Of a DNA stretch of 64,000 nt, positions 30,315 to 48,677 are shown piece after piece. Each line of letters begins with the position of its first letter. Position 1 is the first letter of the stretch. The notes under the pieces were generated by a model. That model saw only the letters and a program-made list of their open reading frames with translations. It was not told the origin of the DNA and ran no database searches. The position numbers and the translations under genes are program-made. Origin of the DNA: Desulfatitalea alkaliphila. GTDB taxonomy: Bacteria > Desulfobacterota > Desulfobacteria > Desulfobacterales > Desulfosarcinaceae. The stretch spans positions 62,001 to 126,000 of the forward strand of contig NZ_JALJRB010000005.1 of assembly GCF_022968795.1 (NCBI RefSeq), read 5' to 3'.

Positions 30315-30417
30315 AGGATCCTCCTGGTTGGTATGTTGTTCCGATTGTGGAAGAACGTTGCTGCTAATGTTGTAGACCATCACCCCCTTTCCGATTTCCG
30401 GCTGCACTCAGGCAACG

Positions 30418-32451
30418 TCAGCCCTGCACCATCCGCCGGATCTCATCGACGATGTCGGGATTGGCCAGGGTGGTGACATCACCCGCGTCCTGGTTGTTGG
30501 AAAGCGCGCCCAACACCCGGCGCATGATCTTGCCGGAACGGGTCTTGGGCATGTCCTTGACGATCCACACCTTGCGCGGCTTGGCGATTTTGCCGATGGC
30601 ATCGCACACCGCATCGGACACTTTGCGCGCCAGGCCGTCGTGCACCTCGAAACCCGGTTTGAGGGACACATACAGATCGGGCTCCTTGCCCTTGATCTCG
30701 TGGGCCACCGGCACGACGGCGGCTTCGGCCACCTCCGGCACCATCAAGGCGGCCGATTCGATCTCCTTGGTGCCCAGGCGGTGCCCGGAAACATTGATCA
30801 CATCGTCGATACGCCCCAGGATGCGGATGTATCCATCGGGCGCCTCCACCGCCGCGTCGCCGGTCAAGTAAGGCCAGTCGCGCCAATCTTTGCTCTGGGG
30901 ATCCTTGCAGTAGCGCTCGTAGTATTGGCGTACATACCGTTCCCGGTCGCCCCAAATGGTTTGAAAAGCCCCCGGCCATGGGTTCTGGATGCAGATGTTG
31001 CCCGCCTTGCCGGCCCCCTGGGGCAGCACATGGCCCTCATCGTCGTAAATGATGGTGTGGATGCCCGGCATGCCGGGGCCCGCGCTGCCGGGCTTCATCG
31101 GTTTGATGGCGGGCAGGGTGCTGCACAGAAAGCCCCCGGTTTCCGTCTGCCACCAGGTGTCCACGATCACCGCTTCGCCTTTGCCGACCTCGTTATAATA
31201 CCAGCGCCACACCTCCGGCTCGATGGGCTCGCCCACCGTGGTCATGTGCTTGAAATGGTAATTGTACTTTCGAGGCTCCTCGGGCCCGATCTTGCGCAGC
31301 GCGCGAATGGCGGTGGGTGCCGTGTGGAAGATGTTGACATCCAGATCCTGGGCGATGCGCCATGACCGGCCTGCATCCGGAAAGGTGGGCACCCCTTCGT
31401 AGACCACCGTCGAAGCGCATACGGCCAGGGGACCGTAGACGATGTAGGAATGGCCGGTGATCCAGCCGATATCCGCCATGCACCAGTAGACATCCTCGGG
31501 ATGGATGTCCTGTACATACTTGGAAGTGGCCGCGACATAGGCCAAATAGCCGCCCGTGCTGTGCTGGCAGCCCTTGGGTTTGCCGGTGGTCCCGCTGGTG
31601 TACATGAGGAAAAGAGGCGCCTCGGCCGGCATGGGCACCGGATCGATGCGTGCGCCGTAATATTTCGGCAGCACATCGTTGACCACGTGGTCCCGATCGG
31701 GCACCAGGGGGGTGGCGGCGGAATACTTGCCGGGATAGCGCTGCCACACCAGCACCTTGTCCACCGCGCGGCCCTGTTTGGCCGCCACCTCGCAGGCCAC
31801 GTCGGCATTCTTCTTGTGGTCCAGCAAGGTGCCCCCGCGCCAATAGGCATCCATGGTGATCAGCACCCGACTGCCGGAGTCCACGATGCGGTCGGCGCAG
31901 GCCTGGCCGGAAAAACCGCCGAACACCTGGGAGTGGATCACCCCCAAACGGGCACATGCCAGCATGGTGATGGGCAGCTCCGCCACCATGGGCAAATGCA
32001 GGGTCACCCGGTCGCCGGCCTTCAAACCGCAAAAATCGCGCAGCAACGCGGCGAATTCGTTCACCCGGACGTAGAGGGTCTGATAGGTGATGTGTTCGTA
32101 CTTTTCGCCCATGGGCTCGGGCACGAAGTGGATGGCGGTCTTGTTCTTGTGGCGCGCCAGATGCCGATCCACGCAATTGTAGGCGGCGTTGATCTTGCCG
32201 CCCACGAACCATTTCCAGCAGGGGGCGTCGCTGGTGTCCAAAATGGTGTGCCAGTATTCGTACCAATCGAGCAAATCGGCATACGCTTTGAAACAGTTGG
32301 GAAAATTTTCCAGGCGAAAGCGATCGTAAATGGCCTCGTCGGTCATGTTGGCCTGGGCGATGAAACGCGCACTGGGATGAAAATAGGCCTCCTCCTGCCA
32401 ATGAACGGCGATTTGCGCTTCCGATGTTTCGACAATCTCTTTTTCTGCCAT
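30418..32451 (-). CDS. acs: Acetyl-CoA synthetase
   Basis: A 677-residue AMP-forming synthetase: acetate plus ATP plus CoA to acetyl-CoA. The ATP motif is YTSGTTGKPKG. The core continues with DTWWQTETGG and YLTGDAA. The hinge/C-terminal motif is SGHRLGTKEIES, and the catalytic, acetylatable lysine is in KTRSGKIMRR near the C-terminus. The length is typical. ATG 32451 has AGAGG six bases upstream. It is the first gene of the acetate module. The roughly 670-bp upstream spacer is unusually long and probably holds its promoter. Confidence 0.95.
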   Translation of the reverse strand: MAEKEIVETSEAQIAVHWQEEAYFHPSARFIAQANMTDEAIYDRFRLENFPNCFKAYADLLDWYEYWHTILDTSDAPCWKWFVGGKINAAYNCVDRHLARHKNKTAIHFVPEPMGEKYEHITYQTLYVRVNEFAALLRDFCGLKAGDRVTLHLPMVAELPITMLACARLGVIHSQVFGGFSGQACADRIVDSGSRVLITMDAYWRGGTLLDHKKNADVACEVAAKQGRAVDKVLVWQRYPGKYSAATPLVPDRDHVVNDVLPKYYGARIDPVPMPAEAPLFLMYTSGTTGKPKGCQHSTGGYLAYVAATSKYVQDIHPEDVYWCMADIGWITGHSYIVYGPLAVCASTVVYEGVPTFPDAGRSWRIAQDLDVNIFHTAPTAIRALRKIGPEEPRKYNYHFKHMTTVGEPIEPEVWRWYYNEVGKGEAVIVDTWWQTETGGFLCSTLPAIKPMKPGSAGPGMPGIHTIIYDDEGHVLPQGAGKAGNICIQNPWPGAFQTIWGDRERYVRQYYERYCKDPQSKDWRDWPYLTGDAAVEAPDGYIRILGRIDDVINVSGHRLGTKEIESAALMVPEVAEAAVVPVAHEIKGKEPDLYVSLKPGFEVHDGLARKVSDAVCDAIGKIAKPRKVWIVKDMPKTRSGKIMRRVLGALSNNQDAGDVTTLANPDIVDEIRRMVQG

Positions 32452-33124
32452 GTTGCACCTCTCCCCGGCATTATCGGTGAATAGCTGCTGACCCTGCCCT
32501 TTCGCGGCCCTGCCGCGGCCTGGTTCGACCTCCTTTCGTCCTGCGCGGGTTTGCCGAACGGCCGCGCCCGACACGGCCAGCCGGCAGGCAAGTCCGCCCC
32601 CGCGTCCTATGACCGGCCCACGCCGACCGGTTGCAGGCCTCCGTAGATTGGCCGCCTGGCGCACAAACACCTATCGGTGCGCTTGCCGGATTGCCCCTGG
32701 GGCCACCCCGTGCCGCGCAATGTTGTCAACCGGCACAGACGGGCACGGCGGCGACCTTTGGTGCTTGCAACCGACCTGGATCTCGAACTTTACAAAAAGC
32801 GGACAGCCCCGGTATCAGGCGATCATCACAAAGAGGAAGCGTACGGCGTTCACAGGCGAAAAACCGTTTGATGGTCTGCGATCATTTCCACATTGACGGG
32901 AAGGACTCCGTTGCATAACGCGCTTTCCACTGGAATACAGAGGGGGTTGGTGGACGTCTTGATATTTTGTGACTTGTATTTTTTATTTATACGGCGTATT
33001 CATATTGTTAACTGCATTTGTTCATAGGGTTTGTCAAGCAATAATTTCCATCCCGCCCCGCCCACTTTGGCGTTGGTCCCATGGCCCTTGAAATGTCGGT
33101 TGATTCGTGAACAAAGGAGACCGA
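32452..33124. other. Long divergent spacer upstream of acs
   Basis: No credible gene on either strand. The acs-proximal half is GC-rich; bases from about 32940 to 33040 are distinctly AT-rich and probably contain promoters for acs (minus) and the small zinc-ribbon gene (plus). I searched by eye for a -24/-12 sigma-54 pattern facing acs and did not find a good one. Confidence 0.5.
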
Positions 33125-33490: not shown

Positions 33491-34408
33491 CTACACCAGA
33501 AACTCGCCCACCAGTCGGTCCCAATCGGCGTTGGGCACGCTGCCGTAGATGTCGCTGAGGGCCTCGCCGCCGGTGGCCGCCAGGCGGTAGCCGGCGGTTT
33601 CGCTCAGTACGCTGGTGAGCCGTTGGGACTCGTCGTCCATCCAGGCGTTGCTCTCGCTGCCGAAGAACAGATTCTTCAAGTTGCGGCGCAGGTTGCTGGG
33701 TTGAATCACCATGAACCAGCCTTCGCCGTAGGGAGAGCGGTTGGCCGTCTCGGCGCGCGCGCTCAGTTTGGCGTTGACCGCCACCACCTTGCCGTCCACC
33801 GGGCTCAACGGTTGGGCCGTGTGGCCGCCGCGGCCGATCTTGGCCTGGGGACGGTCCTGGGCGACGGCCTGGCCCAGCTTGGGCAGTTCGATGCGGTCCT
33901 GGGGGCCCAGTAGACGCAGGGCGAAGTCATCCATGCCCACCCGCACCCGGCCGCCATACTCCACCCGCGCCCAGGTGTGGCCGTGGTGATAGTAATAATC
34001 CCGCGCCACGTTGAAACCGGAAGCCTGCTCGCACAAGGGCTCTCCCAAGGGGGTCCGGATACCGTTGTCTTCCAGCATCTGGTCGTAGGGGCAGCGCACG
34101 CAGTCGTAGCCGTGACCACACAGTTTGTAAGCCACCCGCCCGCTGAGCATGTGGCGGCATTTGCGCTGGTTCATCAGCATGCGCAACCGCACCGGCCGCG
34201 GATCGGCGGCGGGGGCTGCATCACCGCGCCCGCGCGCTTCGAAATCGGCCTGCACCTTGCGATCGAAGGCGCACCCCAGGCAATCAAAAGCATTAATACA
34301 GGCAATGGGCTTCACCACGCCGGCGCGGCTCCAGACACATTGATTATTGGTCAGACCGTAGATGAACGGCTGCCCGCTTTTGCTTCCTTTGAAAGTTTGC
34401 CCGGTCAT
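33491..34408 (-). CDS. GcvH-like protein with cysteine-rich N-terminus, no lipoyl lysine
   Basis: A 305-residue protein. The N-terminal 110 residues carry many cysteines, including CLGCAFD and CVRCPYD, suited to bind a metal or cluster. Residues about 140-260 resemble glycine cleavage H protein (HHGHTWARVEYGGRVRVGMDDFALRLLG, then SPVDGKVVAVN). In GcvH the lipoylated lysine sits just before the turn (ESVKA); the aligned stretch here is KIGRGGHTAQP with glycine at that position. ATG 34408 has AAGGAGG five bases upstream. It is downstream of the HdrA-like gene, beyond a strong terminator, so it may be transcribed on its own. A non-lipoyl role in the Hdr system is an inference. Confidence 0.75.
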   Translation of the reverse strand: MTGQTFKGSKSGQPFIYGLTNNQCVWSRAGVVKPIACINAFDCLGCAFDRKVQADFEARGRGDAAPAADPRPVRLRMLMNQRKCRHMLSGRVAYKLCGHGYDCVRCPYDQMLEDNGIRTPLGEPLCEQASGFNVARDYYYHHGHTWARVEYGGRVRVGMDDFALRLLGPQDRIELPKLGQAVAQDRPQAKIGRGGHTAQPLSPVDGKVVAVNAKLSARAETANRSPYGEGWFMVIQPSNLRRNLKNLFFGSESNAWMDDESQRLTSVLSETAGYRLAATGGEALSDIYGSVPNADWDRLVGEFLV

Positions 34409-34494
34409 ATGCGCCTCCTTGGGTTGGGAGTGGACATCTGAAGATGCTCGCCTGTTACCCTCCCAATTAGCAGGAACCGGGCCAAGTTGGTATT

Positions 34495-34585
34495 TTGAGT
34501 TTGTTGAGTTTGTTGAGTTTGTTGTGTTGGTGGGGGTTTTTGGGGTTTGTTGGGTTGGTGGTGTCTGTTGGGTTGGTTGAGTTTT
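34495..34585. repeat. TTTGTTGAG nonamer array (GT-rich)
   Basis: Three exact tandem TTTGTTGAG units followed by degenerate GGTTTGTTGGGTTGG copies. It is the reverse-complement type of the AC-rich tract at 34741-34806, so the two form opposing arms around the terminator. Confidence 0.65.
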
Positions 34586-34652
34586 ATGCAGCCTGCGCTT
34601 GATGCAAATTGTTGCACTATTAACGGCACATGGATGCAACCTTCTGTTCTGC

Positions 34653-34691
34653 GGAAGAAAAACAGGGGTGATGCGAATCGCATCACCCCTG
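34653..34691 (-). terminator. Strong intrinsic terminator of the hdr operon
   Basis: A perfect inverted repeat, CAGGGGTGATGCGA and its complement with one central base (34663-34691). On the minus strand it is followed by TTTTTCTTCC. It lies about 115 bp beyond the HdrA-like stop codon. Confidence 0.85.
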
Positions 34692-34740
34692 TGGCACATT
34701 GCAACACCCTTTCAACGTAAACGGTCACAATTCACTAAAA

Positions 34741-34806: not shown

Positions 34807-37800
34807 CTACCCTTGCTCGAACAGCGCATGGGCTTTTGCGATGAGCTGGTCGTCGGTGAAGTGTTTGAGGGTGATGGCCTTGCCCGGGCACTCGGAGACG
34901 CAGGTGCCGCAGCCGTGGCACAGGGCCGGATCGATCACCGCGTGGGAGTGCTCGTCGATGTGGGGGATGTGGTAGGGGCAACTGCGCACGCAGGTGAGGC
35001 ATGCGGCGCAAAGCCCCGCATCCACGACGGCCACCACCCCGCCCATCAGGACTGCCTCCTTGGAGAGCAGGGTCATGGCCCGGGCGGCGGCCGCCTTGGC
35101 CTGGGCGATGCTCTCTTCCATCGGTTTGGGATAGTGGGCCAGTCCGGCCAGGAAGATCCCCTCGGAAGAGAAATCCACTGGACGCAGCTTGGCATGGGCT
35201 TCGACCAGGAAGCCGTCGTCGTTGACCGGCACCTTGAAGAGTTCGTAGAGCCGGTTGTTTTTGGTCGCCTCGATGCCGGCCGCCAGGATCAGCAGATCGG
35301 GCTTGATGCGGATGGGCCGGCGCAGCACGTGATCGGTGACGGTGAGCAGCAATTGGTCCTGGTCGGCCATGGCCACGCTGGGCAATTTCTCCGGGTCGAA
35401 ACGGATGAAGATCACTCCCTTGGCGCGGGCTTCCTGGTAAAGCTTTTCACGGAAACCGTAGGCCCGGATGTCGCGGTAGAGAATGAACACCTTCATGGCC
35501 GGGTTCTTCTCTTTGAGCGCCAAAGCCGCTTTTAGACTGTGAGTGCAGCAAATCTTACTGCAGTAGGGCCGCTCTTCGGTTCGTGATCCCACGCACTGGA
35601 TGAACACGGCGCACTTGGCGGTAATCAGCCGCTGCTCATCGCGGTTGAAGGCGGCGTCCAGATCGAGATGGGTCAGCACGTTGGGGTGCTTGCCGTAGAG
35701 ATACTCGGTGGGTTTGTACTCCACTGCCCCGACGGCCAGCAGGGCCGCGCCGTGGGCGATTTCCAGTGTACGGCCGCCGCCGTCGGTGAGGGTGGAGGTC
35801 ATGTTGCCCATGGCGCCGTGGGTGGCCGTCACTTCGGTGTCCAGGTGCAGATGGATCCGGGGGTGTTGGCGGGTGCGCTCGATGAGATCTGCCAGGTAAA
35901 CGGCCAGGTCCTCGCCCTGCCAGGTGGCGCGCAGGTGCCGGGCGTTGCCGCCCAACCGGCCTTGCTTTTCCACCAGGTGCACCTCACACCCCTGTTCGGC
36001 AATGCCCAGGGCCGCCTCCATGCCGGCCACCCCGCCGCCGACCACCAGGGCGGTTTTGGTGATGGGCACGGACACATGATAGAGCGGTTCAATGAAAGTT
36101 GCTTTGGCCACGGCCATGCGCACCAGCTCCTTGGCCTTCCGGGTGGCCTTTTCGGGGTTGTTCATGTGCACCCAGGTGTTCTGATCGCGGATGTTGGCCA
36201 TTTCGAACAGATACTTGTTCAGGCCGGCCTCGCGGATGGTTTCCTGGAACAGCGGCTCATGGGTACGCGGCGAGCAGGAGGCCACCACCACGCGGTTGAT
36301 CTGCTTTTCCTGGATCACCGCCTTCATGTGGTCCTGGGTGTCCTGGGAACAACTGAAAAGATTGTCCTCCACATGCACCACGTAGGGCAGAGACTTGGCA
36401 TAGTCGCGCACCGCCGGCACATCGGCCACGCCGCCGATGTTGATGCCGCAGTTGCAGACAAAGACCCCCACCCGAACGGGCTGGCCTTCAATATCGGTTT
36501 CCGGCGGCAGCTCCCTGGTTTGGGTCAGGGACCAGCGAGCGGCCGCCAGACGTTCGCCGGCGCAGGCCGCCGCGGCCGAAGCCTCCATGACCGAGTGGGG
36601 AATGTCCTTGGGTTCCTGAAAGGCCCCGCAAACATAAATGCCGTCCCGAGAGGTATTCACTGGCGCGGTGTCGCGGGTTTGAACGAAGCCGTAGGGGTTG
36701 AGATCGATGCCCAGGCGGCCGGCCAGGGCCACCGCTTCGGGGTCGGCGGTCAGGCCGACGGAGAGTACCACCAGGTCGTAGCGCTCCTCGGCGGTCTTGC
36801 CGGCTTCGGTGGCGTAGACAATGCGTAACTGCTCGCCTTCCGCCGGATAGACCGAATGGATGCGCGAACGCACCATGCGCACACCGTGCTCATTCTGGGC
36901 GCGCAGGTTGTATTTGTCAAAATCTTTGCCGAAGGTGCGCATGTCCATGAAGAAGATGGTCGCATCCAGGGGGCTGCTGCTGTGCTCCTTGGCGATCACC
37001 GCCTGCTTGTTGGCGTACATGCAGCACACCGAAGAACAGTAGCCATTGTCGCAGTGGTTGATGTCCCGCGACCCCACGCACTGCAGAAAGGCGATCTTTC
37101 TGGGTTCCTTGTGGTCCGAGGGACGCACCAGGTGGCCGGCAAAGGGACCCGAGGCCGAGAGCATGCGCTCGAACTCCAGGCTGGTCACCACGTTGGGATG
37201 GTTGGCGTAGCTGTAGGTTTCGTAAAGCGTGGGATCGTAGGGCACGAACCCCGGCGCGAGAATGACGGCGCCCACCTTGACTTCCCGGGTGCGGGCGATC
37301 TGGCGATGGTCCACCGCGCCGGCCAGGCAGGCCTTGACACACATGTAACACTCGGAACAGACCCCGCAGGCAAGGCAGCGCGCCCCTTCGGCGCGGGCCA
37401 GGTTTTCGTCGAAACCCAACTGGACTTCTTCGAAGCCGGCCACCCGCTGTTCGACCGCCCGGTGGGGCATGAGCGCCCGGGCCGCAATGGCATGTCCCTG
37501 CAGCGGCACATCAGTGACCGCCTCCAAGGCCTGGCCGCGGCCCTCCTGCAGATCCACACCCTCGATGTAGCGTTGGATGGAAATGGCCGCCTGTTTTCCG
37601 GCTTCGATGGCTTCCACCACCGTGGCCGGACCGGTGACCGCGTCGCCGCCGGCGAAGATGTCGGCGTCCCGGGTTTGCAAACTGACCGGATCCACGTTCA
37701 TGGTGCCCCAGTCCGTGAGGGTGCAGGCGCACTCGTCGGTCAGGCAGGCCCAGTCGCTCTCCTGGCCGATGGCCGGCACCACGGCATCCACCTCGATGAT

Positions 37801-39237
37801 GAACTCCGAGCCGGCGATGGGCTCGGGCCTCCGGCGGCCGCTGGGGTCGGGTTCGCCCAGTTCCATCCGGATACATTCGATCCCCGTGACCCGCCCGTTG
37901 TCGGCGATGACCCGCACCGGGTTGGTCAGGGTCATGATCTCGATGCCTTCGTCGCGGCACTCGGCGATCTCGTCGGCGCTGGCGGGCATTTCCGCCTCGG
38001 ATCGGCGGTAGATGATAAACGGCTGCTGCGACCCTTTGCGCAGAGCGGTGCGCACGGCGTCCATGGCCACGTTGCCGCCGCCGATCACCGCCACCCGGTC
38101 GCCCAAGGATACCGTTTCGCCCAGGTTGATGCGACGCAGGTAGTCCATACCCGGATAGACCCCTTCGAATTCCTCGCCTTCGATGCCCAGCACCTTGCAC
38201 TCCTGGGCGCCGATGCCCATAAAGAAGGCCTTGTAGCCCTGCTCGCGCAGTTGGCCGATGGTGACCGTCTTGCCGATCTCCACACCGGTCTTGAATTCGA
38301 CCCCCAGGTCGCGGATGGTCTGAATTTCGGCCGCGATCACATCCCGCGGCAGACGGTATTCGGGGATGCCCAGCACCAGCATGCCGCCGAGCACGTCGTG
38401 CTTTTCGAACACGGTGACCGCATAGCCCTCGATGGCCAGAAAGTAAGCGCAGCTCAATCCCGCCGGTCCCGAACCGATCACGGCCACCTTCTGGTTTTTG
38501 GCGGCCTTCTTCTCCGGCAGGTAGCGGGTTTCGGACCCCATATCGATGTCGGCCAGATAGCGGTGCAGGTGCATGATGTCCAGGGGCTGGTCCACTTTGG
38601 CACGGGTGCAGGCGCCTTCGCAAGGATGGTGGCACACCCGGCCGCACACTCCGGGAAAGGGGTGGGCTTCCTTGAAAAGGGCGATGGCGTCGCGGTAGTT
38701 GCCCTGGTTCATCAGGGCGATCCAGCCCTGGACCCCCACATTGGCCGGGCAGGTGGCTTTGCACGGCGCGGTGCCCTTCTTCTCGATGGCAAAGGCCCCG
38801 GGCATGGCCTGGGGATAGAGTTTGTAGGCCGCCTTGCGGGCCTGCAACCCTTCGTCGAAACGGTTGGGCACCTCGATGGGACACACTTTGGCACACTCGC
38901 CGCAGGCGGTGCATTTCTCCATGTCCACAAAACGCGGCTGCTCGCGCACCTGCACGGTGAAGGCGCCCGGTTCGCCGTCGATACCCTCCACCGTGGCCAT
39001 GGTGAGCATTTCGATGTTCAGGTGGCGGCCGGCCTCCACCAGCTTGGGAGAGATGATGCACATGGAGCAATCGTTGGTGGGAAAGGTCTTGTCCAGCTGG
39101 GCCATCTTGCCGCCGATGGCCGAATTGCGCTCCACAAGATAGACCTTGAATCCCGATTCGGCCAGGTCCAGGGAGGCCTGGATGCCGGCGATGCCGCCGC
39201 CGACCACCATCACCGCGCCGGTTGTCTCTTGTGTCAT
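34807..39237 (-). CDS. Giant HdrA-like flavoprotein with embedded GltD/NfnB-type module
   Basis: A 1476-residue cytoplasmic electron-transfer flavoprotein. Order of parts: an HdrA-type FAD motif (VVGGGIAG, 11-18), a [4Fe-4S] motif (CTACGECAKVCP, 109-120), a glutamate-synthase-small-subunit-like module with cysteines at 159-210 plus FAD (VAVIGSGPAG, 251-260) and NAD(P) (VAVIGGGNVA, 382-391) sites, then an HdrA-like segment with CVGSRDINHCDNGYCSSVCC, a second HdrA unit (VVGGGVAG, about 1130), and two C-terminal ferredoxin motifs (CAACLTCVRSCP, CHGCGTCVSECP). It resembles HdrL/HdrA2-type proteins and could link NAD(P)H, ferredoxin and disulfide-type acceptors, possibly by flavin bifurcation. Its ATG overlaps the stop of the HdrD-like gene by 4 bp (ATGA). 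Confidence 0.88.
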   Translation of the reverse strand: MTQETTGAVMVVGGGIAGIQASLDLAESGFKVYLVERNSAIGGKMAQLDKTFPTNDCSMCIISPKLVEAGRHLNIEMLTMATVEGIDGEPGAFTVQVREQPRFVDMEKCTACGECAKVCPIEVPNRFDEGLQARKAAYKLYPQAMPGAFAIEKKGTAPCKATCPANVGVQGWIALMNQGNYRDAIALFKEAHPFPGVCGRVCHHPCEGACTRAKVDQPLDIMHLHRYLADIDMGSETRYLPEKKAAKNQKVAVIGSGPAGLSCAYFLAIEGYAVTVFEKHDVLGGMLVLGIPEYRLPRDVIAAEIQTIRDLGVEFKTGVEIGKTVTIGQLREQGYKAFFMGIGAQECKVLGIEGEEFEGVYPGMDYLRRINLGETVSLGDRVAVIGGGNVAMDAVRTALRKGSQQPFIIYRRSEAEMPASADEIAECRDEGIEIMTLTNPVRVIADNGRVTGIECIRMELGEPDPSGRRRPEPIAGSEFIIEVDAVVPAIGQESDWACLTDECACTLTDWGTMNVDPVSLQTRDADIFAGGDAVTGPATVVEAIEAGKQAAISIQRYIEGVDLQEGRGQALEAVTDVPLQGHAIAARALMPHRAVEQRVAGFEEVQLGFDENLARAEGARCLACGVCSECYMCVKACLAGAVDHRQIARTREVKVGAVILAPGFVPYDPTLYETYSYANHPNVVTSLEFERMLSASGPFAGHLVRPSDHKEPRKIAFLQCVGSRDINHCDNGYCSSVCCMYANKQAVIAKEHSSSPLDATIFFMDMRTFGKDFDKYNLRAQNEHGVRMVRSRIHSVYPAEGEQLRIVYATEAGKTAEERYDLVVLSVGLTADPEAVALAGRLGIDLNPYGFVQTRDTAPVNTSRDGIYVCGAFQEPKDIPHSVMEASAAAACAGERLAAARWSLTQTRELPPETDIEGQPVRVGVFVCNCGINIGGVADVPAVRDYAKSLPYVVHVEDNLFSCSQDTQDHMKAVIQEKQINRVVVASCSPRTHEPLFQETIREAGLNKYLFEMANIRDQNTWVHMNNPEKATRKAKELVRMAVAKATFIEPLYHVSVPITKTALVVGGGVAGMEAALGIAEQGCEVHLVEKQGRLGGNARHLRATWQGEDLAVYLADLIERTRQHPRIHLHLDTEVTATHGAMGNMTSTLTDGGGRTLEIAHGAALLAVGAVEYKPTEYLYGKHPNVLTHLDLDAAFNRDEQRLITAKCAVFIQCVGSRTEERPYCSKICCTHSLKAALALKEKNPAMKVFILYRDIRAYGFREKLYQEARAKGVIFIRFDPEKLPSVAMADQDQLLLTVTDHVLRRPIRIKPDLLILAAGIEATKNNRLYELFKVPVNDDGFLVEAHAKLRPVDFSSEGIFLAGLAHYPKPMEESIAQAKAAAARAMTLLSKEAVLMGGVVAVVDAGLCAACLTCVRSCPYHIPHIDEHSHAVIDPALCHGCGTCVSECPGKAITLKHFTDDQLIAKAHALFEQG

Positions 39238-40538
39238 GACGGTTCCTCCTTATGCAAGCCGAAGTCCTTGAGGTCGTCCCCCAGGTAGGTGCGCTCGTTC
39301 TCGCCCAGGACACCCATGGCCAGGCACATGATGGTCCAGATGTGGACCACGTTGTAGTGACCGCCATAATGATGCCCGATGTCTTCGATCTGGGCGTGGC
39401 AGTTGTGGCAGGGGGCGAATACATAGGTCGCGCCGGTCTCCTGGATCTGATCGAATTTTACTTTGCCATAGGCCCGCCGCTGATCGGTGAAACCGGCCTG
39501 CAGTGCGCCCCCACCCCCGCCGCAGCAGTAGTTGTTGATGCCGTTGGGCACCATGTCGATGAAGTTCTCCTCGCCCACGATGGTCCGGATAACGAAGCGC
39601 ATGTCGTCGGCCATCTTCTGCCCCCATGTTTTACGCACCATATTGCAGGGATCCTGGGCCGTGAACTTGATCTTCAGATCTTTGTTCCAGTCGCTGTTGA
39701 CTTTCAGCTTACCTTCCCTGATCCATTGCGCGTAGAGGGTGATGAGGGTGGTGAACTCGAACTTGTGATCGATTTTGAATTTTCGCAATCCTTCCAGGAT
39801 TGCAAAGAATGAGTGCCCTCACTCCGTATTGACCACCACCGGACACTTGAGCGTGTTGTCGATGTGATAGACAAACTCCTCTAGTATATAACGCCAACCT
39901 TCATCGTCGGCCAGAAAGAGACAATAGTTTTCCCCACCCCACATGACCGAGGGATAGGTCCAGTCGGCGCCCACGGCATGCAGAATTTTCCACAAAGGGG
40001 CCAGTTCGTCCGGTTCGGTGACCGGTTCGCGGGAGTTCTGGTTGATGGCATAGTAAGCGCCCGGACGATCCACGCTGACCTGCAGATCCTGGAAGCGAGG
40101 ATCGGTCATCTGGATCTCCTCGGCCACATCTTCCACCGTCCAGATGAAGTCCTCGGTGGGCACCCCCATGGCGTTGCCGGCCCGAATGTGCATGTCGCAG
40201 GAGCCGAGGATCCCCTTGGGCCGCTTCTCCCGCGGCCAGCCGGCGCGCATGTTGTAGACCAGCTTGGGAATATCGACCTTCATGGGGCAGGCGTTGATGC
40301 AGCGGGTGCACATGGTGCACACCCAGGCCCAGGGCGTTTTGGCGATCTCTTCGTCCAGGCCGAGCACGACCATGCGCACCAGTTTGCGCGGATCCATATC
40401 GAAAAGCTCAGAGGCCGGGCACCCGGCGGTACAGGTGCCGCAGGTGAGGCACAAATCCAGATTGGCCGCCGGAACACGATCCAGGACCAGGGCCTTGAAG
40501 TCAGGCGCCATTTCGTTGATCTCGATGGGCAAGGACAT
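39234..40538 (-). CDS. HdrD-like Fe-S/CCG-domain oxidoreductase, probable selenoprotein
   Basis: Read through the single in-frame UGA at 39819-39821, this is one 434-residue protein. The N-terminus has two [4Fe-4S] motifs (CLTCGTCTAGCP, CTMCTRCINACP). The C-terminus is a CCG domain (CNMVR, CCGGGGG, CHNCH). The UGA falls in PVVVNTE-UGA-GHSFF, where CCG proteins of this type usually have Glu-Cys-Gly-His, so selenocysteine replaces a cluster- or substrate-binding cysteine. The frame is unbroken on both sides. A hairpin downstream fits the bacterial SECIS rules. Without readthrough the distal part would start at a TTG inside the hairpin with no proper ribosome site. It is the electron-transfer partner of the HdrA-like protein encoded next. 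Confidence 0.85.
39781..39821 (-). promoter_or_regulatory. Bacterial SECIS element after in-frame UGA
   Basis: On the minus strand, UGA (39821-39819) is followed 22 nt later by an apical loop UGGAA (39796-39792). The loop is closed by a perfect 7-bp stem, GCAAUCC/GGAUUGC, that extends three more pairs including one wobble. The bacterial SECIS rules expect the loop 16-37 nt from the UGA, 3-14 nt long, with G in one of its first two positions; all are met. Confidence 0.8.
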
Positions 40539-40806: not shown

Positions 40807-41685
40807 TCAGCGCAGATTGGCCGCATCCAGATAGGGTTGCAGTTTCTCTTCGCCGCCCAGGGTGATGATATGCAAACCCTGGCACATCTCCCGCAGCCCT
40901 CTGGCCAAGTCGCCGAACAACTCGATGCTGGCCTGCCGTTTATCCGTGGCCTTGTCCAGCTTCTGGATCACCCAATCGGGCACCAGACCCGCTTTGAAAT
41001 GGCGGTTGATGAAGCGCGCCATGGCGGCGTTGCGCAGCAACAGCACTTCGGCAATCACCGGCACGCCCAAGGGTGCCACCTGGCGCATGAACTTCTCGAA
41101 CTGCTCCAGATCGAAGATGGGGGTAGTGAGAAAGTAACCGGCGCCCATCATCTTCAAGTTCTCCATGCTGTACAGCCCCTTCTTGGGCAACTGTTTGCCC
41201 CAGGGGGATTCGATGCCGGATCCCAGGGTGAAATCGAAGGCTTCCCCCAGATCGGCGCCGTCGATGCTGCGACCGTCGCGCAGATGCTGCAGCACGGAGC
41301 TTAGTTTGCCCGCATCCACATGGAAGAACATCTCCTCCTGCACGCTGTCGCCGGAGATGCGATAATCCTCGGTGAACACCAGCAGGTTCTCGATGCCCGA
41401 CTGGTGGGCCAGGGTCAGATCCTTCTGCAGTTGGATGCGGTTCTTGTCCCGCGTGGTGGTCTGATAAATGGGGCTGAACCGGTTCTGCCGCAGCAACTCG
41501 CAAGTGTGTATGCTGTCGCCCACCACCCCTTGCAGATCCACATCGGTCACCGCGACACCGTCGACCCGGCCGCGGATTCGTTTCATGCGCTCCACCAGCT
41601 TTTCGGGAGAATCGTCGCCCAAGGGGGTCTGCACCTCGGACGTGACCACGAATTTTCTGTTGCCCAGAGCCTCCTTGAGTTTCAT
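40807..41685 (-). CDS. metF: Methylenetetrahydrofolate reductase (MetF family)
   Basis: A 292-residue TIM-barrel enzyme of the MetF family that interconverts methylene- and methyl-tetrahydrofolate. The early motif TSEVQTPLGDD contains the catalytic glutamate region; DSIHTCELLRQNRFSPIYQTTTRDKNRIQLQKDL and GAGYFLTTPIFDLEQFEKFM are family-typical. It has no C-terminal extension and no own NAD(P)H domain fusion. It lies between the HTH/receiver regulator and the HdrD-like gene on one strand. MetF next to Hdr-type proteins is a recurring arrangement in anaerobes with the Wood-Ljungdahl pathway, where the Hdr proteins supply electrons. Confidence 0.88.
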   Translation of the reverse strand: MKLKEALGNRKFVVTSEVQTPLGDDSPEKLVERMKRIRGRVDGVAVTDVDLQGVVGDSIHTCELLRQNRFSPIYQTTTRDKNRIQLQKDLTLAHQSGIENLLVFTEDYRISGDSVQEEMFFHVDAGKLSSVLQHLRDGRSIDGADLGEAFDFTLGSGIESPWGKQLPKKGLYSMENLKMMGAGYFLTTPIFDLEQFEKFMRQVAPLGVPVIAEVLLLRNAAMARFINRHFKAGLVPDWVIQKLDKATDKRQASIELFGDLARGLREMCQGLHIITLGGEEKLQPYLDAANLR

Positions 41686-41722: not shown

Positions 41723-42295
41723 TCATTGCAGCTCCAGCAGCCGGGCAACCTCTTCCTTGAGTTGGGGCAGCGGCAGCGGTTTGGAAAAGCACACATCCGC
41801 ACCGTGGGACTTCATTTCCTTGAACTTCTCCTCGTCCAGGTAGGCCGACAGCACAACGATCTTGGTGTTTTTGGTGTCCGGGTTGGATTTGATCTTGCGG
41901 CACACCTCATTGCCCTTGATGTCGGGCATCATGATATCCAGAATCAGCAGGTCCGGCTTGAAGTGGTTGACCTGCAAGCCGGCTTCGAAGCCGTCGGCCG
42001 CCGATATCACCTCGTAATCGAACTCGTCCTCTTCCAGTGATTGAACGATGGTTTCCACGATGATCGGATCGTCGTCCACCACCAGAATGCGCTTGTGCGC
42101 CTGTTGAGGCGCCTCGTCGGGGATGGGGATGCCCTGGCGCTTCATGAACGCCTCAAGATCCATCCACTTGATCCGCCGATGGCCGCCGACCGTTTTGTAC
42201 GCCTTGATATGCCCGGCCTCGATCCAATTGATGATCGACTTGGAGGAGACCTGGCACAACTGGCTGGCCTTGTAGACCGTTAACGTGTCTTCCAT
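41723..42295 (-). CDS. MerR/excisionase-type HTH fused to a receiver domain
   Basis: A 190-residue regulator. Residues 1-55 are an excisionase/MerR-like winged HTH (TVYKASQLCQVSSKSIINWIEAGHI, KTVGGHRRI). Residues about 68-188 are a CheY-like receiver: VVDDDP acidic pocket, phospho-Asp in LLILDIMMPD, and the Lys in CFSKPLP. ATG 42295 has AAGGGGG seven bases upstream. The order is the reverse of most response regulators, with the DNA-binding part first. It is the first gene of the MetF/Hdr operon, behind a good sigma-70 promoter, and a sensor kinase lies directly upstream, so the pair probably controls this operon. Confidence 0.88.
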   Translation of the reverse strand: MEDTLTVYKASQLCQVSSKSIINWIEAGHIKAYKTVGGHRRIKWMDLEAFMKRQGIPIPDEAPQQAHKRILVVDDDPIIVETIVQSLEEDEFDYEVISAADGFEAGLQVNHFKPDLLILDIMMPDIKGNEVCRKIKSNPDTKNTKIVVLSAYLDEEKFKEMKSHGADVCFSKPLPLPQLKEEVARLLELQ

Positions 42296-42808
42296 CTGAG
42301 CACCCCCTTTGTTGGATGGTCCGGCTTCCCTTGGTTGCTGCAGGCTGCCGCATCCGTCGCGGCCGACCTTGCGGAGCGGCCCGCATAAAAAGGACCATCG
42401 TGGTTGGCCTATCCTGATTTCCTTTAAAACCCAAATCCCCATCCTTGTCAATAGTAATTTTCATAAAATCTATAATAACTAAACTTATATACTCATTATT
42501 CCGCTATTAGATTTGATATTTTTATGTTTTTATAGTTTTTTCTGTTTTAATACTGAACAGCGCTTCCCCTTCGAGCTGCCGCCGCAAAAGCGAAACCAGC
42601 CGGGATCCATAGGTAAATCCAGGATGGGAGGGACCCAGGTGAATCGGCCGACCTTGCCGGCGGATATATTCTATGTTGGGAAATTATAGGTGGGGTGGGT
42701 GCGGGTCACGGACCCATGGCAAGCGGCAAGGTGGGGCCGACGCAAAGCTTGTTGCCCGCGGTTCTCTTCGGCGGGTTCATGGAATACCGTTTCATATGCC
42801 GTAGGCTA
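42296..42808. other. AT-rich control region upstream of the MetF/Hdr operon
   Basis: No gene. Bases about 42455-42560 are strongly AT-rich compared with everything nearby and lie directly upstream of the mapped promoter, so they may act as an UP element or a binding region. The rest, up to the kinase stop, shows nothing recognisable. Confidence 0.55.
42423..42451 (-). promoter_or_regulatory. Sigma-70-type promoter of the MetF/Hdr operon
   Basis: On the minus strand, TTGACA (42451-42446) and TTTAAA (42428-42423) are 17 bp apart, with an AT-rich tract upstream. The expected transcript start is about 120 bp before ATG 42295. Confidence 0.6.
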
Positions 42809-44945: not shown

Positions 44946-47900
44946 TTAATCCCATGCTTCGGCAAGACCCGTTCTCACCTCGAGCGGTGCGTCAATCCGC
45001 ACATAGGTGTCATTTGCTGTCGTATACGGCGGCCATTCGAACTCCGCAAGGCTGGGATCGCCCGTCTTGGCGAAATTGGACCACATGTCCATGGTTGCCT
45101 CCGCAACCTCCCGATCTTCCGCGGTCCACCACTCGTCCTGACCCGGTGTGTAAAGATGCGATGGGTAATTGAAGAGGTATTGGAGTTCGGCACCATGCAC
45201 AATCGGAAGCGCTCCACGGCTGAACTTGTAAACATACTGATTTTCCGCAACATGATCGGCGCGGAAAGGCATGGATGCAATTAAACCATCAATCAGGTGC
45301 GCATTGTCTTCGCTCGTACAACCCGACATGAACGGCACGTCGGATGGCAAGCCATCCACAATGGAATCATAACTTGTTTTGGAGGCGTAGTGATCATCGA
45401 CGGTGGGCCGGTAAACACCCCGATCGATATCGTTCGCAATTTCCGCCTGTATAATGGCCGTCCAAGGCAATGCACGGGCCTCCTCGATGGATGCAACACC
45501 CAACAGCCCGAAGAGCATTTCTCCGAGGGCTTCGGAATTGGCTTTCACCGATTCGGGCGTCGAAACAGGATCCGGCACGTATTGCCCGGCCATGGAGATC
45601 GCTTTATGGAAAAGCCCCTGCGCCATGGGCGACATCATCAAGGAAACAACCTTGCCGCCGCCGCCGGACTGACCGAAAATGGTGACATTGTCCGGGTCAC
45701 CACCAAACATGGCGATGTTTTCCTGAATCCACTCAAGGGCCACAATCAGGTCCATTTGGCCGTAATTCCCGGAGCCTTCATACACCGTCTCCGCTGCGAG
45801 CCAGGGATGGGCCAGGTATCCGAGTGCGCCCAGACGGTGGTTGACGGAAACCAGCACAACATCTTTGTCGGTAATGCCTGCCGGGTTGTTATAAAGTGGG
45901 GTGTTGGCTGTCAAAATGGTGAAGGCACCCCCGTGGAACCACACCATCACCGGCAAATCGGAAGCACCTCTCGGCGCCGTAATATTCAGATGCAGACAAT
46001 CTTCGCTGATTGCGCCTCGGCCGTCCAAGTAGGTCCGCAACGCCGGGTTTTGCGGCGCCTGGTTGCCCCAAGCCGTTGCTTCGCGCACGCCCGTCCAAGG
46101 TGCCAATGGTTGCGGCGGTCTCCAGCGCAGATCGCCCACGGGCGGCTGCGCGTAAGGAATACCCAGCCATTGCCAAGTATTCGCGTTCGGGCCATAGCCC
46201 CTCAGCGCACCTTGGGTCGTCTCAATCGTGATTCTGTCACTCAGGCTCGCAACCAACTGATCCCGTGCCTCAACGGCCGGTTTCAATGTGCGAGCCCTGG
46301 GATTGGCGTCCGTAAACACCTCCGCATCGTTGAGGTCGGACAACAGCTCCGTGACGTTTGGATCGGTTGCAAACGCAGCAGCAGCCTGGTTGAAGACAAT
46401 GGCTCTTGCCTCGGATGCCACAACGTCATGGATGGCCGACGGGATTTGAATGCCATTGTTGTTGTCCCCATCGGCATCCAAAGTTTGAAGCAGGCGGGCG
46501 ATATTGATCACCTCCTGATCGGATATGTCACCCGAGGGAACAAGATCCACGGGTGTTATCTCGTCGACGCCGGGGGCAGTGCCCAGCGGGACACCACCAA
46601 CCAAAAAGGTGACCGCTTCGCCAGGCATATAGCGGAACGTCCCGGAAGCATCCGTCCGTGCCGCCACCAGACGCGGTGTACTATAGCTCAACCCCGACAC
46701 GGGGCTGTTGGCAAAGACACCCGTGAGCGCAAACCCTTCCATCAGGCCGTTTCTCATCGCGATGGTACCATCCTGGGCGATTTCCAGAAATTCTTCAGCG
46801 GCACTCGTCAGCGGCTGCCAATCAACCTCGCCCGGAATCCCGGGGTTTCCGGTGCGGGCAAAATTGGTCCACATGGTCATCATTGTATCTGCGATTTGCT
46901 CATCCGCATCGGTCCACTCGATGGGCATCGACGGATCATGGCCGATGATCGGAATCGATCTGTTGAAGACATAGGGCAGCTCGCCACTATGGGGCGTCAA
47001 AAACCCCTGTTCGGCGGCGGCGTCGGTAACACGGCTGAACACGAAGGCAAATACATCCGACTCGAAGTTGTCCGCCATCCACGGCAATTCACGGGGGAAC
47101 ACTTCGAGGTTATGAGGATTGTCCGCCTGGGTGATACCTTCCAGCACCGGCACATCATTTTGCAAACCCGCCTCGAAAATGTTGCGCAAAGTATCCGGCA
47201 AATACCAACCATCCACGTTCGGCATCAGTTCCGCCCAACCCGGCACGCTTCTTGAGACCGCTTCGATTTCCACCCAACTTCTGGACCGCATTGCGGCAAG
47301 GACATCATCCGCGTCGTCGACACCAAGTGCGGCCGACAGAGACGCACCATAGGCTTCAGCTTGCTCAAGAGTGATTTGTTGGGTCGGGCAGGTGTACCGG
47401 CTGCTTTGGACGATGGCCTTGTGAAAAAGCCCGGTCGCAAGAGGGCTCGCCAGCAAAAAGTGCACCTTGCCACCGCCGCCGGATTGACCGAAAATCGTCA
47501 CATTGCCAGGGTTCCCACCGAAAGCCTCGATGTTGGCCTGGACCCACTCAAGGGCCGCGACCAAATCCATCTGGCCGTAATTGCCCGATCCGCTATAGCC
47601 CGATTCTTCGGAAAGCGCTGGATGGGCAAGATAGCCGAAAGGGCCCAGTCGATGGTTGACCGTAACCAGAACGACCCCCTTGGTGGGAAGGGAATCGGGG
47701 TTGTTGTATAATTTTGTGTTGCCGGTGAGGACACGGAAACCGCCGCCGTGCAACCAAACCATAACAGGCAGATTCTCGGCATCCCGGGGGGCCGTGATGT
47801 TCAAGTATAAACAATCTTCACTCATGCCGCCCTCACCGTACACCACCCAGGTGGGCGGAGAGGGCGCCTGATTGCCCCAGGCGGTGGCTTCGCGAACGCC

Positions 47901-48677
47901 CTCCCACGGCGCGGGAGGTTGCGGCGGCCGCCAGCGCAAATCGCCCACAGGCGGTTGTGCGTAAGGAACCCCCAGCCACTGCCAGGTGTCATCGGTGGCA
48001 CCGTAGCCACGCAGCATTCCATATGAGGTTTCAACAACCACCCTGTCGCTGCGAGAAGCCTCGAGGTGATCCAGCGCTTGGGTCGCGGTCTTCAAGGACC
48101 GGGGGATTGGATTGGCATCGAGAAAAACATTTGCCGCGTTGAGGTCGGCAAGCAGATCCATGACAATGGGATCGTTCGTAAAGTTTTCCGATGATTGGTT
48201 GAAATCGATTTGGCCCGCCGCTGAAACAATACCCGCGATGTCTTCGGTAATCTGCATCCCGTTGTTAAGGTCGCCGTCGGCATCCAAGGTTTGCAGCAGG
48301 CGCACGATATTGGTGACTTGAAGATTGGTCGAATCGACTGCCCCCTCTACGATGTCGACGGGGGTGACCACTTCTTGCGCCGAAGCGGTGCCGATGACAA
48401 AATCGCCAATGGAAAAGGTAACCGCATCACCATTCTTGAAGTACCGGAAAGTGCCATCTTCATCCGTAACACCTTCATAGCCCCTGGTGGAATAGGAAAG
48501 CCCCTGCACAGGACTGTCCAAAAAGACACCGCTCAAGGTCGGCCCACCCGATGGCGGATCAGGGTCTGATGAAGAGCTGCACCCGCTTGCGATGATCAAT
48601 ACCAACCCGAGAAACAGAACAGAGAAACGGATTCCGCATTTACCGCGAGGAAAAGATCGGTTGAACGATTTTCTCAT
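44946..48677 (-). CDS. Lipoprotein with two tandem carboxylesterase type-B units
   Basis: A 1243-residue secreted lipoprotein. The signal peptide ends in a lipobox (LIIASGC, about residues 27-33). The body is an internal duplication: each half has a roughly 120-residue module (VFLDSPVQGLSYST / VFANSPVSGLSYST, both with RLLQTLDADGD) and then a carboxylesterase (WLGVPYAQPPVGDLRW / WLGIPYAQPPVGDLRW; SEDCLYLNI / SEDCLHLNI; nucleophile Ser in IFGQSGGGGKV in both). Both active sites look intact. Base composition is less GC-rich than that of its neighbours, which hints at acquisition. It is probably controlled by the sigma-54 activator encoded upstream. Confidence 0.88.
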   Translation of the reverse strand: MRKSFNRSFPRGKCGIRFSVLFLGLVLIIASGCSSSSDPDPPSGGPTLSGVFLDSPVQGLSYSTRGYEGVTDEDGTFRYFKNGDAVTFSIGDFVIGTASAQEVVTPVDIVEGAVDSTNLQVTNIVRLLQTLDADGDLNNGMQITEDIAGIVSAAGQIDFNQSSENFTNDPIVMDLLADLNAANVFLDANPIPRSLKTATQALDHLEASRSDRVVVETSYGMLRGYGATDDTWQWLGVPYAQPPVGDLRWRPPQPPAPWEGVREATAWGNQAPSPPTWVVYGEGGMSEDCLYLNITAPRDAENLPVMVWLHGGGFRVLTGNTKLYNNPDSLPTKGVVLVTVNHRLGPFGYLAHPALSEESGYSGSGNYGQMDLVAALEWVQANIEAFGGNPGNVTIFGQSGGGGKVHFLLASPLATGLFHKAIVQSSRYTCPTQQITLEQAEAYGASLSAALGVDDADDVLAAMRSRSWVEIEAVSRSVPGWAELMPNVDGWYLPDTLRNIFEAGLQNDVPVLEGITQADNPHNLEVFPRELPWMADNFESDVFAFVFSRVTDAAAEQGFLTPHSGELPYVFNRSIPIIGHDPSMPIEWTDADEQIADTMMTMWTNFARTGNPGIPGEVDWQPLTSAAEEFLEIAQDGTIAMRNGLMEGFALTGVFANSPVSGLSYSTPRLVAARTDASGTFRYMPGEAVTFLVGGVPLGTAPGVDEITPVDLVPSGDISDQEVINIARLLQTLDADGDNNNGIQIPSAIHDVVASEARAIVFNQAAAAFATDPNVTELLSDLNDAEVFTDANPRARTLKPAVEARDQLVASLSDRITIETTQGALRGYGPNANTWQWLGIPYAQPPVGDLRWRPPQPLAPWTGVREATAWGNQAPQNPALRTYLDGRGAISEDCLHLNITAPRGASDLPVMVWFHGGAFTILTANTPLYNNPAGITDKDVVLVSVNHRLGALGYLAHPWLAAETVYEGSGNYGQMDLIVALEWIQENIAMFGGDPDNVTIFGQSGGGGKVVSLMMSPMAQGLFHKAISMAGQYVPDPVSTPESVKANSEALGEMLFGLLGVASIEEARALPWTAIIQAEIANDIDRGVYRPTVDDHYASKTSYDSIVDGLPSDVPFMSGCTSEDNAHLIDGLIASMPFRADHVAENQYVYKFSRGALPIVHGAELQYLFNYPSHLYTPGQDEWWTAEDREVAEATMDMWSNFAKTGDPSLAEFEWPPYTTANDTYVRIDAPLEVRTGLAEAWD

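Follow-up and report, generated by a model that had tools for sequence, protein, structure and literature searches.

The window analysed here, a 64,000-nucleotide stretch of Desulfatitalea alkaliphila DNA (contig NZ_JALJRB010000005.1, positions 62,001 to 126,000), carries on its minus strand, from 40538 to 39237, a single frame of 434 codons whose sole in-frame TGA lies at 39821-39819 (codon 240). The frame encodes an iron-sulfur protein related to the HdrC and HdrB subunits of heterodisulfide reductase-type enzymes, and the comparisons described below leave little room for any conclusion other than that UGA-240 is read as selenocysteine (Sec). The gene is therefore called the selenoprotein gene throughout, and comprises the following features, among them a selenocysteine insertion sequence (SECIS).

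39819..40538, minus strand: upstream (5') portion of the selenoprotein gene, from the ATG at 40538 through codon 239 and the UGA; encodes the HdrC-like part with two [4Fe-4S] clusters and the degenerate first half of the HdrB-like part
39819..39821, minus strand: UGA codon 240, very probably decoded as selenocysteine; motif Asn-Thr-Glu-Sec-Gly-His
39237..39818, minus strand: downstream (3') portion of the gene, codons 241-434; carries a complete C-terminal CCG motif (C298, C338-C339, C377, C380) and PF02754 at residues 293-384
39782..39806, minus strand: SECIS hairpin with a core stem at 39802-39786 that closes a GGA loop at 39795-39793 (from folding and conservation of pairing)

A preliminary description of this DNA had noted that the frames 39819-40538 and 39234-39788 share a phase, are split by the TGA at 39821-39819 within Glu-UGA-Gly-His, and together give a product of 434 residues with Sec at position 240. 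The frames, the codons around the TGA (GAG-TGA-GGG-CAC) and the translation confirm all of this. The selenoprotein gene terminates at TGA 39236-39234, which overlaps the ATG of the downstream HdrL gene (ATGA), and the G+C content at third codon positions (GC3) is equal on either side of the UGA (0.787 vs 0.789). On its own, the arrangement of the frames would be weak evidence, because the window (60% G+C) holds 20 same-frame pairs of stop-free stretches (at least 180 plus at least 150 codons) with one intervening stop of any kind, the selenoprotein gene counted; chance is ruled out because the UGA column and the hairpin behind it are both conserved. Gene callers that are blind to Sec would break the subunit into two pieces.

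Conservation of the selenocysteine column

The genome itself and its relatives, 97 genomes together, were searched with the selenoprotein at E <= 0.001, distant paralogues included, and matches were found in 97/97; the query here, as in the Pfam and NCBIfam scans, was a 435-residue form that counts the terminal stop as a residue. Among the matches listed (n = 150), 120 have an in-frame TGA and 30 have none, the position of the TGA having been checked in the fetched rows only; many homologues carry TAG or TAA besides TGA inside the matched stretch. For a residue-level comparison, 70 homologues were aligned, of which 30 loci were given by the search and 40 were hand-picked, 20 of these with a bias towards rows lacking TGA. 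At column 240, 49 of the 70 rows have UGA and 21 a Cys codon, a ratio that is not a frequency, with nothing else found and the surrounding motif always NTE-[U/C]-GH. The UGA rows come nearly all from genomes other than that of D. alkaliphila, and its recurrence from genome to genome argues against an error in sequencing. Protein conservation in the alignment is unbroken across the UGA.

The same column was followed on a tree of 106 rows (65 Sec, 41 Cys after removal of duplicates), built with the trait region excluded. Here it reads TGA in 65 rows, TGC in 32 and TGT in 9, with no other codon, in agreement with the earlier expectation that residue 240 would align with Cys or Sec. The Sec/Cys trait requires 5 changes on the tree as against a shuffled mean of 32.8, and the Sec clade of the window's protein includes two Cys rows, L031 and L044, nested within it. 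A scan of contigs from organism-named genomes gave 49 loci, one of which (L148, a 31-residue match on a Clostridiaceae contig) was set aside; 47 of the remaining 48 are readable at column 240, with 24 Sec and 23 Cys, and the one left over, L123, corresponds to L033, a Cys row. ETE-U-GH replaces NTE-U-GH at 2/47 loci (L140 and L144). The nearest of these loci, at 97% identity, is from Desulfatitalea sp. SH-MAG143. The D. alkaliphila genome itself encodes further Sec paralogues at G000:C7:97289-98542 (L041) and G000:C38:20244-21464 (L043), as well as a Cys paralogue at G000:C23:14973-16193.

A conserved hairpin behind the UGA

Bacterial SECIS elements follow rules on spacing from the UGA and on a G in the loop. 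Folding confirms the position and spacing of the hairpin previously described, with loop UGGAA 22 nt from the UGA. The core stem has 7 bp with loop GGA, or 6 bp when the loop is written UGGAA, and the minimum-free-energy fold extends it to an 11-bp stem (39806-39782). The hairpin starts 16 nt past the UGA and its loop 23 nt past it, or 22 nt in the UGGAA form. The TTG from which the downstream piece would formally start (39788) had been placed inside this hairpin and does lie in its 3' arm.

Pairing was evaluated in the 49 Sec rows of the residue-level comparison (45 distinct), with stem positions 20-26 set against 30-36 from the first base of the UGA and 500 shuffles. Of the 315 cells of the 7-bp stem, 99.4% are paired, and two of its pairs are changed on both sides (A-U with G-C, U-A with G-C). 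Outside these rows, L140 and L144 contribute A-U at the top stem pair. None of the 500 shuffles matches the observed value for cells paired, for cells changed on both sides or for the covariation score, and pairing is lost when the partner strand is slid along. In the 106-row set, all 7 pairs form in 63/65 Sec rows and 6 pairs in the other 2; of the Cys rows, only 1/41 (L120) has 7/7 pairs and the remaining rows have 1 to 5. The loop begins with G in 49/49 Sec rows, and the mean folding energy over the 42 nt past the UGA is -12.1 in these rows vs -8.9 in the 21 Cys rows. The hairpin constrains the protein sequence as well: the residues encoded by the 3' arm are Gly-Leu in 49/49 Sec rows vs 4/21 Cys rows. 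A scan of the region with Rfam gave no family at cut-off, with one chance match at 10.3 bits against a cut-off of 45.

Selenocysteine machinery and reading of the UGA

The genes selA, selB, selC and selD, which the preliminary description had named for a search of the genome, are each found above cut-off: SelA scores 605 bits, SelB 380 and SelD 367, each over its family cut-off, and tRNA-Sec scores 73.5 bits vs a cut-off of 47. A SelA match is present in 94/97 relatives, 92 of them over cut-off. The selD gene (G000:C16:32576-33502) itself contains an in-frame TGA, so that SelD is probably a selenoprotein too. At the locus in the window, SelB and Sec-tRNA(Sec) would recognise the hairpin behind UGA-240 and insert selenocysteine.

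A reading of the UGA as another amino acid, through reassignment or a suppressor and with no role for selenium, would account for a frame that is open once the TGA is taken as a residue, but is hardly conceivable given that the selenoprotein gene itself terminates in TGA (which rules out genome-wide reassignment), that the UGA is followed by a SECIS-like hairpin in a genome with the complete Sec machinery, and that homologues without the UGA have Cys, the usual counterpart of Sec. Very improbable, too, is an in-frame UGA that arose by mutation or assembly error and left a pseudogene or two separate short genes. The abundance of one-stop-separated stretches in this G+C-rich window and the formal TTG start of the downstream piece speak for such an origin, but that TTG lies inside a conserved hairpin, protein conservation and GC3 continue over the UGA, and the recurrence of UGA at the same codon in 49/70 homologues and 65/106 tree rows rules out both pseudogene and sequencing error.

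Protein architecture and family

The Pfam matches place a two-cluster ferredoxin part at residues 27-88 and a single CCG domain (PF02754, 41.9 bits) at residues 293-384, with the UGH motif at residues 240-242 between them. Sequence matches in the PDB are to HdrC chains for the N-terminal part (the best) and to HdrB for the C-terminal part. The predicted model (predicted local distance difference test, pLDDT, 82.4; predicted template modelling score, pTM, 0.85) has structural matches to EtfD (9ojn) and to HdrB and HdrC chains. The protein thus joins an HdrC-like dicluster part to an HdrB-like CCG part in one chain. The earlier label 'HdrD-like' is fair, although an HdrD or fused HdrBC is expected to have two complete CCG motifs (C...CC...CxxC) and here the C-terminal one alone is complete.

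In the predicted model, U240 directly precedes a helix (241-253) in the way that C377 precedes helix 378-390, a placement from which we infer that Sec240 occupies the position of the leading cysteine in a CxxC cluster motif. C206 and U240, which the N-terminal half retains, are invariant in 46/46 rows, with Sec counted as Cys. Sec240 may accordingly be placed, on the model, as a cluster ligand or as the redox partner of the invariant Cys206.

DsrK, HmcF and TmcB are parts of membrane complexes. Their profiles align over most of the selenoprotein and are the best-scoring NCBIfam models, but the scores lie far under the curated cut-offs (HmcF 173.9/750, TmcB 153.9/735, DsrK 105.1/400 bits), which rules out membership of any of the three. 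The genome's own DsrK (L157) and a second DsrK-related protein (L158, a match to the DsrK model at 198 bits, under cut-off) have Cys at the Sec column, within ECGH, and it is this cysteine that Sec240 would replace. The phage collection gave no match to the selenoprotein and PHROG no family, and the plasmid search gave one distant match at 23% identity.

The suggestion of a new type of selenoprotein cannot be upheld, since published tables already list a Sec-containing Fe-S oxidoreductase family, 'GlpC', with the motif UGH (PMC13188914, PMC1794560). The family was counted as 'GlpC' in 2006 (PMC1794560), appears in a later review (PMC9312934), and is entered in a 2026 table as 'Fe-S oxidoreductase-like protein, PTHR43551, motif UGH', with a WP accession for one member (PMC13188914). 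An Fe-S oxidoreductase is among the named Sec proteins of a marine deltaproteobacterium (PMC8318568), whereas for Desulfococcus multivorans five UGA genes are reported, none of them, in the accessible text, an Fe-S oxidoreductase (PMC5109826). Matched by motif and description, the present protein and the 'GlpC'/PTHR43551 family share the U-G-H motif, the iron-sulfur oxidoreductase assignment, deltaproteobacterial hosts and neighbours of the hdrA and frhD type; the published neighbours are of the F420-type hydrogenase kind, whereas here they are methylene-tetrahydrofolate (methylene-THF) reductase and a long HdrA with a GltD insert. Desulfobacterium autotrophicum HRM2 offers a second likeness, again by description: its HdrD4, soluble and HdrCB-like, was listed as a selenoprotein in 2009, and its HdrL is described as an Hdr/glutamate-synthase fusion (PMC2702500). 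In that organism, however, the HdrL genes are followed by mvhD, and the accessible text states no link between HdrD4 and MetF (PMC2702500). The selenoprotein thus adds one more member to a family known from the literature since 2006 at the latest; for its methylene-THF reductase gene context, no published account was found in the accessible literature. The 2026 review describes the relation of the family to its operon partners as unclear (PMC13188914).

Gene neighbourhood and a methylene-THF reductase context

The selenoprotein gene is flanked in the window by the following genes.

34807..39237, minus strand: long HdrA-type flavoprotein of the 'HdrL' type, 1476 amino acids, into which a glutamate-synthase-like (GltD) NAD(P)H domain is inserted; the ATG of its gene overlaps the selenoprotein stop
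40807..41685, minus strand: methylenetetrahydrofolate reductase-family protein, a divergent MetF (PF02219, 81 bits); order kept in relatives
41723..42451, minus strand: response regulator with HTH_17 domain, a possible cluster regulator; Desulfocicer (L114) has these two domains upstream as well
33491..34699, minus strand: GcvH-domain protein downstream of HdrL; true start probably internal, link to the cluster uncertain

The arrangement was compared over the close Sec clade, made up of 18 loci (L100-L106 and L108-L118). MetF lies upstream at 17/18 of these, the exception (L118) having only 375 bases upstream, and HdrL lies downstream at 17/18, the exception (L106) being cut by a contig end, so that the order MetF-HdrD(U)-HdrL, with HdrD(U) denoting the selenoprotein, is kept across several genera. 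At nine loci (L105, L108-L111, L114-L117) mvhD, metV and a second metF come after HdrL, with the domains confirmed in L108 and L114, and MetV and MvhD are found near the selenoprotein gene in Desulfocicer, Desulfamplus and others. Loci of other Sec clades (L137, L138, L141, L142) also adjoin HdrL, mvhD, metV and metF. Over loci L101-L147, with L123 taken as Cys, MetF or MetV occurs in the flanking DNA, which differs in length, at 21/23 Sec loci vs 0/24 Cys loci. Among the matches listed from the genome and its relatives, 31/120 Sec matches vs 0/30 Cys matches have a listed MetV no more than 10 kb away; for at least one Cys match (L091, G056:C83) there is a MetV outside the MetV matches listed. 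The D. alkaliphila genome encodes CdhC and three MetV loci.

The gene content at these loci resembles that of MetVF-HdrBCA-MvhD in Moorella thermoacetica and Sporomusa ovata, with which it shares genes for MetF, MetV, MvhD, an HdrBC-like subunit and HdrA. The HdrA of the complex proposed for Moorella has the same GltD insertion as the window's HdrL (PMC9430772). The differences are that HdrB and HdrC are here fused, that codon 240 is Sec, that an extra divergent MetF lies upstream, and that there is no MetV or MvhD beside the window's copy. An hdrC-hdrB fusion within an hdrABC-mvhD-metVF cluster is known from the deep-sea Chloroflexi DscP3 and is said to occur in some sulfate reducers (PMC5736913). 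In the accessible literature, that paper included, no mention was found of Sec in the fused HdrC-HdrB subunit of such a cluster, nor was any tie of Sec-HdrD to MetF or MetV, most subscription journals lying outside the coverage.

On this basis HdrD(U) would be the equivalent of HdrBC in a Hdr-type methylene-THF reductase, as proposed for Moorella (PMC9430772) and studied in Sporomusa (PMC6085437). Sequence comparison makes this role a fair hypothesis. For the reading as a whole, i.e. that the 434-residue Fe-S selenoprotein is the fused HdrC-HdrB subunit of a Hdr-type methylene-THF reductase, we estimate a probability of about 0.62, a confidence that is limited because the reading includes the reductase role and must leave room for a function of HdrD and HdrL apart from MetF. 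In that alternative, which we regard as the less likely of the two, the protein is a selenoprotein and, with HdrL, forms a soluble heterodisulfide, DsrC-trisulfide or ferredoxin/NAD(P)H oxidoreductase, its methylene-THF reductase neighbour being incidental. It would fit with the absence of any such reductase gene near many paralogues (24 Cys loci and some Sec loci), with the fact that the best-scoring named families, HmcF, TmcB and DsrK, are electron-transfer proteins, and with the divergence of the window's MetF (81 bits to PF02219 vs 151 for the second MetF of L114), which makes the activity of that MetF uncertain. It is at odds with the conservation of the MetF-HdrD(U)-HdrL order across several genera, with the nine loci completed by mvhD, metV and metF, and with the GltD insertion shared with the Moorella HdrA.

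A number of observations weigh against the fused-subunit reading or parts of it. Both mvhD and metV are absent beside the window's copy, and likewise at L085, L086 and L098 of the same genus; in D. alkaliphila the two genes are found on contigs C78 and C89, together with other copies of HdrL, so that a complex with MetV is not supported for the window's copy. The Cys orthologue L091 keeps a complete methylene-THF reductase cluster, which indicates that Sec is dispensable for this context. No methylene-THF reductase gene occurs in the flanking DNA of L093 and L095, two Sec paralogues within the D. alkaliphila genome, or of the Sec loci L140 and L144, although contig ends truncate L095 and L140. 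The context counts are non-independent, since Sec and Cys loci are phylogenetically clustered. Concerning the decoding itself, a SelA match is absent from 3/97 relatives (G026, G059 and G090; 65-88% complete), of which G090 has UGA copies; we take this as incompleteness of that genome. In the covariation test, two of the five measures are uninformative (the number of pairs with both-side change is reached by 393/500 shuffles, and that of further pair types by 500/500), and 4/7 stem pairs are invariant.

Some further features of the neighbourhood may be recorded. The mvhD/FlpD genes of Desulfocicer vacuolatum (L114:13798, plus strand) and Desulfamplus (L108:14151, plus strand) have an in-frame UGA of their own, within FCCQY-U-AYAAGD, so that the operon at these two loci probably encodes two selenoproteins. 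The GcvH-domain protein has, by eye, a Cys-containing N-terminal part and a low-complexity leader rich in T, N and Q that is probably untranslated. Farther upstream, a 1243-residue protein (44946-48677, minus strand) shows by eye two apparent tandem carboxylesterase-like repeats behind a lipoprotein-like signal, and has no NCBIfam match at 1e-20. Downstream of the cluster and on the same strand lie genes for an acetate-CoA ligase (30418-32670) and a sodium/solute symporter-family protein (28524-30407), in keeping with acetate use.

Implications for selenium in sulfate reducers

With the acetate-CoA ligase and symporter genes in the window and CdhC in the genome, the pathway served by the fused subunit is inferred to run in the oxidative direction. 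More tentatively, and with somewhat less than even confidence, the Desulfobacterales may possess a selenium-dependent, possibly electron-bifurcating methylene-THF reductase complex of the Wood-Ljungdahl pathway, in which the Sec-containing fused HdrC-HdrB subunit, joined in some species by a Sec-containing MvhD, would relay electrons between NAD(P)H and MetF, with Sec240 either replacing a cluster cysteine of the CCG motif or forming a selenenylsulfide with Cys206. Neither a Sec cluster ligand nor selenenylsulfide chemistry of this kind was found described for the methylene-THF reductase step in the accessible literature. The repeated linkage with methylene-THF reductase genes provides a concrete and testable function for the family of Sec-containing Fe-S oxidoreductases. 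If this function is true, the supply of selenium would bear on how sulfate reducers oxidise acetate or fix CO2.

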